The notes beneath the pieces were generated by a model that was not told the origin of the DNA, ran no database searches, and worked only from the letters and a program-made list of their open reading frames with translations. A program made the translations under genes and the position numbers. A stretch of DNA of 64,000 bases from Branchiostoma floridae (taxonomy: Eukaryota > Chordata > Leptocardii > Amphioxiformes > Branchiostomatidae), in the NCBI RefSeq assembly GCF_000003815.2, contig NC_049988.1, forward strand, positions 17,966,402-18,030,401, written 5' to 3'. Shown here piece by piece: positions 15,147-64,000 of the stretch (positions are counted from its first letter, which is position 1; every line of letters begins with the position of its first letter).

Positions 15147-15204
15147 ATGTTACGGATAACAGTCCTAGCATCCGTAGTCAGTGTTCTTGTAGGGACGTCG
15201 CAGG
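15147..15204 (+). CDS. Exon 1: signal peptide
   Basis: ATG with A at -3 encodes [19 protein letters not shown] followed by a split Gly: a short basic n-region, a hydrophobic core and a small-residue end, typical of a secretory signal cleaved near Ser-Gln. Donor G|GTAAGT at 15205 is strong and phase 1, matching the acceptor at 15879. This start is preferred because it is the only signal-like frame immediately upstream of the PTS exon. Confidence 0.8.

Positions 15205-64000: not shown

Follow-up and report, generated by a model that had tools for sequence, protein, structure and literature searches.

A probable giant MUC4-type transmembrane mucin gene of Branchiostoma floridae with 18 arrayed SEA domains and EGF, TSP1 and NIDO domains

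The transmembrane mucins MUC3, MUC12, MUC13 and MUC17 have the order EGF-SEA-EGF-transmembrane segment, and to our knowledge they contain one SEA domain and no NIDO-AMOP-VWD cassette. Most of the SEA domains of MUC16 are without the canonical cleavage motif, and we know of no NIDO, AMOP or VWD domain in that mucin. Multiple SEA domains as such have been described in MUC16 (PMC4456727, PMC1552070), for which one account gives about 56 predicted SEA domains (PMC4456727) and another states that it has no EGF domain (PMC9080433). MUC4 is described as lacking SEA (PMC4456727, PMC9080433), and the motif GDPH is named as its putative cleavage site (PMC8660890). For MUC4-like proteins of cnidarians, from Actinia tenebrosa and others, one additional C-terminal SEA domain was reported (PMC9080433). 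The site of autoproteolytic SEA domains is given as GSVVV or G-S-[VI]-V-V (PMC4456727, PMC10687090).

Against this background we describe a locus of the lancelet Branchiostoma floridae in a stretch of 64,000 nucleotides (the window; C10:17966402-18030401 in our genome search set of 513,431,437 bases and 431 contigs). Judged from sequence, it very probably carries most of one gene, whose product would be a giant transmembrane mucin of MUC4 type with a stalk of SEA-EGF units. Phase-aware assembly gave a single consistent model of 78 exons on the forward strand, 15147-63984, which encodes a PTS region, 29 EGF exons, 18 SEA domains, one TSP1 and NIDO. A first-pass annotation had named the succession PTS, EGF/SEA repeated 18 times, TSP1, EGF and NIDO, and all of these elements were recovered where it had placed them. 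The features are listed below in window numbering.

1-13722, forward strand: PTS coding region upstream, rich in Thr (33-37%) and running off the left window edge
15147-15204, forward strand: putative first exon, ATG and signal-peptide-like stretch (judged by eye), phase-1 donor
15879-17632, forward strand: PTS exon A, 31% T, 14% S (T+S 45%)
17881-25569, forward strand: PTS exon B, 2,563 aa, 24% T, 19% S (T+S 43%); weak acceptor (1.9), start uncertain
26204-26306, forward strand: PTS exon C
26696-28027, forward strand: EGF exons 26696-26794, 27283-27408 and 27896-28027, of which the second and third are calcium-binding EGFs
28679-29537, forward strand: SEA1, three exons of 113/62/146 nt; where the middle one starts is uncertain
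29942-30521, forward strand: EGF-A and calcium-binding EGF-B
30887-31918, forward strand: SEA2, three exons of 113/50/146 nt
32322-47890, forward strand: array core, EGF-A and then SEA3-SEA15, each of two exons (163/146 nt) followed by one EGF-A (135 or 138 nt)
Forward strand, within the core: SEA3 32919-33370; SEA4 33829-34272; SEA5 34745-35167; SEA6 35574-35998; SEA7 36401-36823
Forward strand, within the core: SEA8 37267-37689; SEA9 38096-38537; SEA10 38916-39371; SEA11 39881-40440
Forward strand, within the core: SEA12 41128-41670; SEA13 42030-42864; SEA14 45532-46032; SEA15 46706-47366
34447-37793, forward strand: modules M4-M7, the putative youngest tandem duplication, pairwise 85.6-93.2% identical in DNA including introns
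48383-52298, forward strand: EGF-B, SEA16, EGF-A, EGF-B, SEA17
49377-49939, forward strand: SEA16, two exons of 163/146 nt
51505-52298, forward strand: SEA17, three exons of 113/50/146 nt
53100-56938, forward strand: EGF-A, EGF-B, SEA18, EGF-A, EGF-B
54747-54859 and 55578-55773, forward strand: SEA18, two exons of 113/196 nt
57667-57840, forward strand: TSP1 exon
58258-60529, forward strand: three EGF exons (58258-58410, 58904-59029, 60383-60529)
60875-63392, forward strand: NIDO exons (60875-61020, 61898-62089, 62813-62974, 63253-63392)
63783-63984, forward strand: post-NIDO exon, with the AMOP domain beginning in its last residues

The statement in the same annotation that all exons join in frame with consistent phases agrees with the model, which has no stop in 6,679 codons, consistent exon phases, GT-AG borders at all 77 introns and conserved exon lengths: 113 nt for SEA N1, 50 nt for N2 (62 in SEA1), 146 nt for C and 163 nt for fused N1N2, with 135 or 138 nt for EGF-A and 123 nt for the EGF-B exons of the array. 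Local profiles gave about 28 strong EGF exons on the forward strand between 26.6 and 60.6 kb, and on the reverse strand of the window their SEA and EGF matches were all at chance level. Splice sites were scored with matrices of metazoan frequencies. Among the sites used, 62 of 77 acceptors and 70 of 78 donors scored highest in the 60 nt to each side (background, 14.6% of AG and 12.4% of GT dinucleotides), fractions that are not independent evidence because score guided the choice of sites. Weak sites are the acceptors at 17881 (score 1.9), 28962 (1.3) and 40295 (0.3) and the donor at 55773 (0.3). At 43328-43855, in the longest of the gene's introns (2,413 nt), a 77-nt direct repeat occurs four times, about 150 nt apart, with open frames on the reverse strand; this is possibly a minisatellite or the remnant of an element. 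An intron of SEA1 contains a (TC)n and then a (TA)n microsatellite at 29082-29188. Rfam and tRNA scans of the window gave no matches.

Each domain type of the model (EGF, SEA, TSP_1, NIDO) is backed by Pfam, with 47.3 bits for TSP_1, up to 91.4 bits for EGF_CA and 76.8 bits for NIDO (cut-off 25). The domain search that had been proposed as a check was positive for EGF, TSP_1, NIDO and AMOP, and its outcome for SEA was divided. Pfam SEA (PF01390, cut-off 26.4 bits) was run on six of the 18 array SEAs (SEA1, 2, 3, 16, 17 and 18); it recognised the SEA2-3 stretch (40.0 bits), the SEA17-18 stretch (35.6 bits) and the downstream SEA19 described below, scored SEA16 below the cut-off (19.0 bits) and had no match for SEA1. 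With local profiles, 17 SEA N-halves and all 18 C-halves gave strong matches on the forward strand. The eighteenth N-half, that of SEA1 (28679-28791), is a weak match in a 113-nt exon, the first-exon length of SEA2, SEA17 and SEA18, and SEA1 scored 45.7 bits against a profile of SEA2-18 (E 6e-13; best of 2,000 shuffles, 7.2). All 18 array SEAs are followed by an EGF-A exon (135 or 138 nt), which stands by itself after SEA2-SEA14 and is joined by a calcium-binding EGF-B after SEA1, 15, 16, 17 and 18. A search of PDB sequences with an alignment of 12 of the 18 SEAs returned marginal SEA matches among unrelated ones (2e7v, a transmembrane protease, E 0.021; MUC1, E 0.08 and 0.11), and with SEA1 as sole query only an unrelated enzyme (E 1.4). 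Scans of prokaryote genome contigs and viral contigs with the SEA profile confirmed no relatives, as expected for an animal gene.

The window end cuts the gene at the start of AMOP. In the next 40 kb downstream we found 27 further exons in phase (1,314 codons, none of them a stop) that carry the gene to at least 87911 (window numbering) and encode, in order, AMOP, VWD with GDPH, C8-3, EGFs, SEA19, EGF, a transmembrane segment and a tail. Pfam matches above cut-off were AMOP (41.0 bits), VWD (57.0), C8-3_MUC4 (51.2), SEA (33.7) and EGF (30.4). The VWD domain contains FGDPHF and the last SEA, SEA19, contains LNGSVIAY; the hydrophobic segment FGVLGAFLLLLLMVCLCRYWF after SEA19 is the predicted transmembrane segment (judged by eye). 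At 79862-79993 an S/T-rich exon fits in phase and was left out of the assembled model, and one exon may have been missed between 83410 and 85898 (window numbering). Two further candidates, 78622-78661 (40 nt) and about 80983-81010 (window numbering), look like decayed EGF copies of their neighbours and were excluded. We infer one transcript for the whole model, and the protein would have the order (signal peptide) - PTS - 3 EGF - [SEA-EGF] x 18 - TSP1 - 3 EGF - NIDO - AMOP - VWD(GDPH) - C8-3 - EGFs - SEA19(NGSVIAY) - EGF - TM - tail.

This order resembles that of MUC4 in its PTS region followed by NIDO, AMOP, VWD with GDPH, C8-3_MUC4, C-terminal EGF and a transmembrane segment (the last by eye), of which AMOP, VWD and C8-3_MUC4 match almost wholly outside the window. 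It differs from MUC4 in 18 SEA domains before NIDO and one after it, in TSP1 and in many more EGFs. Vertebrate MUC4 lacks SEA and the lancelet protein has 19 such domains, so we call it MUC4-type and not plain MUC4. A long tandem run of SEA domains after PTS is shared with MUC16, whereas EGF, which MUC16 lacks, and NIDO, AMOP and VWD, which are not known from it, are present here. The C-terminal SEA with a G-S motif, the EGF and the transmembrane segment recall MUC3, MUC12, MUC13 and MUC17. With the mucin4-like proteins of cnidarians the lancelet mucin shares NIDO, AMOP, VWD and a C-terminal SEA; their account describes a single additional SEA, and neither a SEA-EGF array nor TSP1 is described there (PMC9080433).

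A comparison within the same genome is offered by a cluster on contig C13, which was read in 14 stretches (140 kb, C13:13.105-13.245 Mb, with 6,006 N). NIDO matches in the genome number 55 at exon level, one of them at C10:17.71 Mb. At C13:13.165-13.235 Mb, similarity to the mucin gene identified three MUC4-like genes in tandem; like the mucin described here, they have exons for EGF, NIDO, AMOP/VWD-like domains and EGF again. In two of the three a C-terminal SEA was recognised, with a first exon of 113 nt in each and the motif GSVVTAY or GSVVADY; its second exon has 214 nt in one gene and runs into Ns in the other. A transmembrane candidate was seen in one of the two stretches scanned. In contrast to the array mucin, no array-type SEA half and no TSP1 were found in the 140 kb of the cluster (6,006 N). 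That the SEA and EGF content goes far beyond known MUC4-like proteins, as had been proposed, holds for these paralogues, where neither array SEA nor TSP1 was found, and for the cnidarian proteins as described, with one additional C-terminal SEA (PMC9080433). Among the literature matches listed, titles and abstract openings yielded no NIDO mucin with a SEA array. What appears new is that a SEA-EGF array and a MUC4-type cassette are joined in one protein.

The array would have grown as a SEA-EGF module of phase 1-1 was duplicated in tandem, with M4-M7 as the youngest copies. In M4-M7 the six compared introns are 80.0 to 98.2% identical. The dN/dS ratio was 0.05-0.27 in all 12 SEA pairs tested (153 pairs are possible), with dS above 2 in three of them, and sequence comparison indicates purifying selection on the SEA exons. 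Module identity that includes introns, together with low dN/dS, fits tandem duplication with function retained. The exon split is N1|N2C in SEA18, SEA19 and a C13 SEA, N1|N2|C in SEA1, 2 and 17, and N1N2|C in SEA3-16, which suggests that the three structures arose in this order. Descent of the array SEAs from a C-terminal SEA was also sought in sequence and this line was dropped: a profile of SEA2-18 could not separate the C-terminal SEAs from shuffles (C13 SEA 7.5 bits, below the best shuffle at 11.0; SEA19 outside the top five). Since that profile fails on C-terminal SEAs, exon structure is what supports an origin of the array from such a domain. In a DNA tree of modules SEA3-15 stand apart from SEA1, 2, 16, 17 and 18 (support 0.911), in the protein tree not clearly so; SEA16 groups in the DNA tree with the edge SEAs and not with SEA3-15, unlike its exon structure. 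When C-terminal SEAs were added, SEA19 and the C13 SEA joined SEA1 at 0.973 on very long branches.

Towards the 5' end, translation in six frames reveals long PTS frames at 1-13772 (four that overlap), 15854-17656 and 17875-25641. The upstream region, a Thr-rich tandem repeat with a 78-nt repeat (a 26-aa unit), has frame breaks near 1090, 3600 and 4850 and an N gap at 5048-5351; the left window edge lies directly after another N gap, and in the 40 kb before the window T-rich frame patches with N gaps lie between about -40 and -32 kb and again from -16 kb up to the edge. Because of these gaps and breaks alternative gene starts are possible. Region 1-13722 may be the 5' PTS of the same mucin gene; its exon has a strong donor of phase 1 at 13722 (score 12.3), from which splicing to 15879 would be possible. 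An alternative in which 15147 opens the gene and supplies a signal peptide, while the PTS of 1-13722 and of the sequence upstream of it is part of another mucin gene, has in our estimate somewhat less than an even chance: the exon at 15147 has a hydrophobic stretch, its ATG is preceded by A at -3 and its phase-1 donor is compatible with 15879, but the strong donor at 13722 argues against a separate upstream gene, as do 15879 being a coding phase-1 acceptor and the absence of any SEA or EGF match, and of AATAAA or ATTAAA, between 13722 and 15147. Two promoters on one gene would explain both 5' ends.

Two further explanations were weighed. The parts of the protein are separable in evolution, given that tandem MUC4-like genes of this genome carry the cassette without the array, and one could imagine a PTS/EGF/SEA mucin and a separate TSP1-EGF-NIDO-AMOP-VWD-SEA-TM gene, or more than two adjacent genes, that only appear joined. 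We regard this as very unlikely, as frame and phase are consistent over every array-cassette junction. The first-pass view of one gene over an accident of adjacent genes is upheld by the same phases and by the frame, which continues for 27 exons through transmembrane segment and tail. It also seems unlikely that the copy number is partly an artefact in which the assembler expanded or collapsed M4-M7; their identity of 85.6-93.2%, in a locus with N gaps and PTS frame breaks, might invite such a suspicion, but even the closest pair is only 93.2% identical, so that no pair can stem from a single read, and the exons of M4-M7 are all still open.

In an alignment of all 18 array SEAs the cleavage position holds Gly-Ser only in SEA1 (DGSFVAIF), which reads R-D-G-S-F-V-A where the other 17 read R-[LTF]-P-[DE]; in an extended alignment this G-S is in register with those of SEA19, where the dipeptide is also present, and of a C13 SEA. 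The 17 array SEAs without G-S are therefore predicted to be non-cleaving. Within the window, 126 N-glycosylation sequons lie in the 3,477 aa that follow the PTS, and the array SEAs have 3 to 5 each. The O-glycosylated PTS might form an outer brush, which the array, as a mostly non-cleaving, N-glycosylated stalk, would lift off the membrane. SEA19 near the membrane would self-cleave, perhaps as would SEA1 at the border of brush and stalk and GDPH in VWD, and self-cleavage would leave joints without a covalent bond, able to come apart under force or when the protein is shed. The combined reading, of locked array joints between two breakable ends (SEA1 and SEA19, with GDPH as a possible third site) in a gene that links MUC4 to the SEA mucins and whose array came from the C-terminal SEA of a MUC4-like ancestor, is a tentative one that we rate as rather doubtful.

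MUC4 is the odd one among the transmembrane mucins because it is without SEA. A proposal by Zaretsky and Wreschner (2013), as reported in PMC9080433, is that the ancestor of MUC4 had a SEA domain. In the lancelet genome there are MUC4-type genes whose C-terminal SEA is of the cleavable type, one of them with an additional 18-SEA stalk, which makes the ancestral-SEA proposal testable across chordate genomes. The locus is also a natural example of SEA multiplication with the cleavage dipeptide lacking from 17 of the 18 array domains. A SEA-EGF array in a MUC4-type protein may help to show that SEA domains were present in the ancestors of MUC4.
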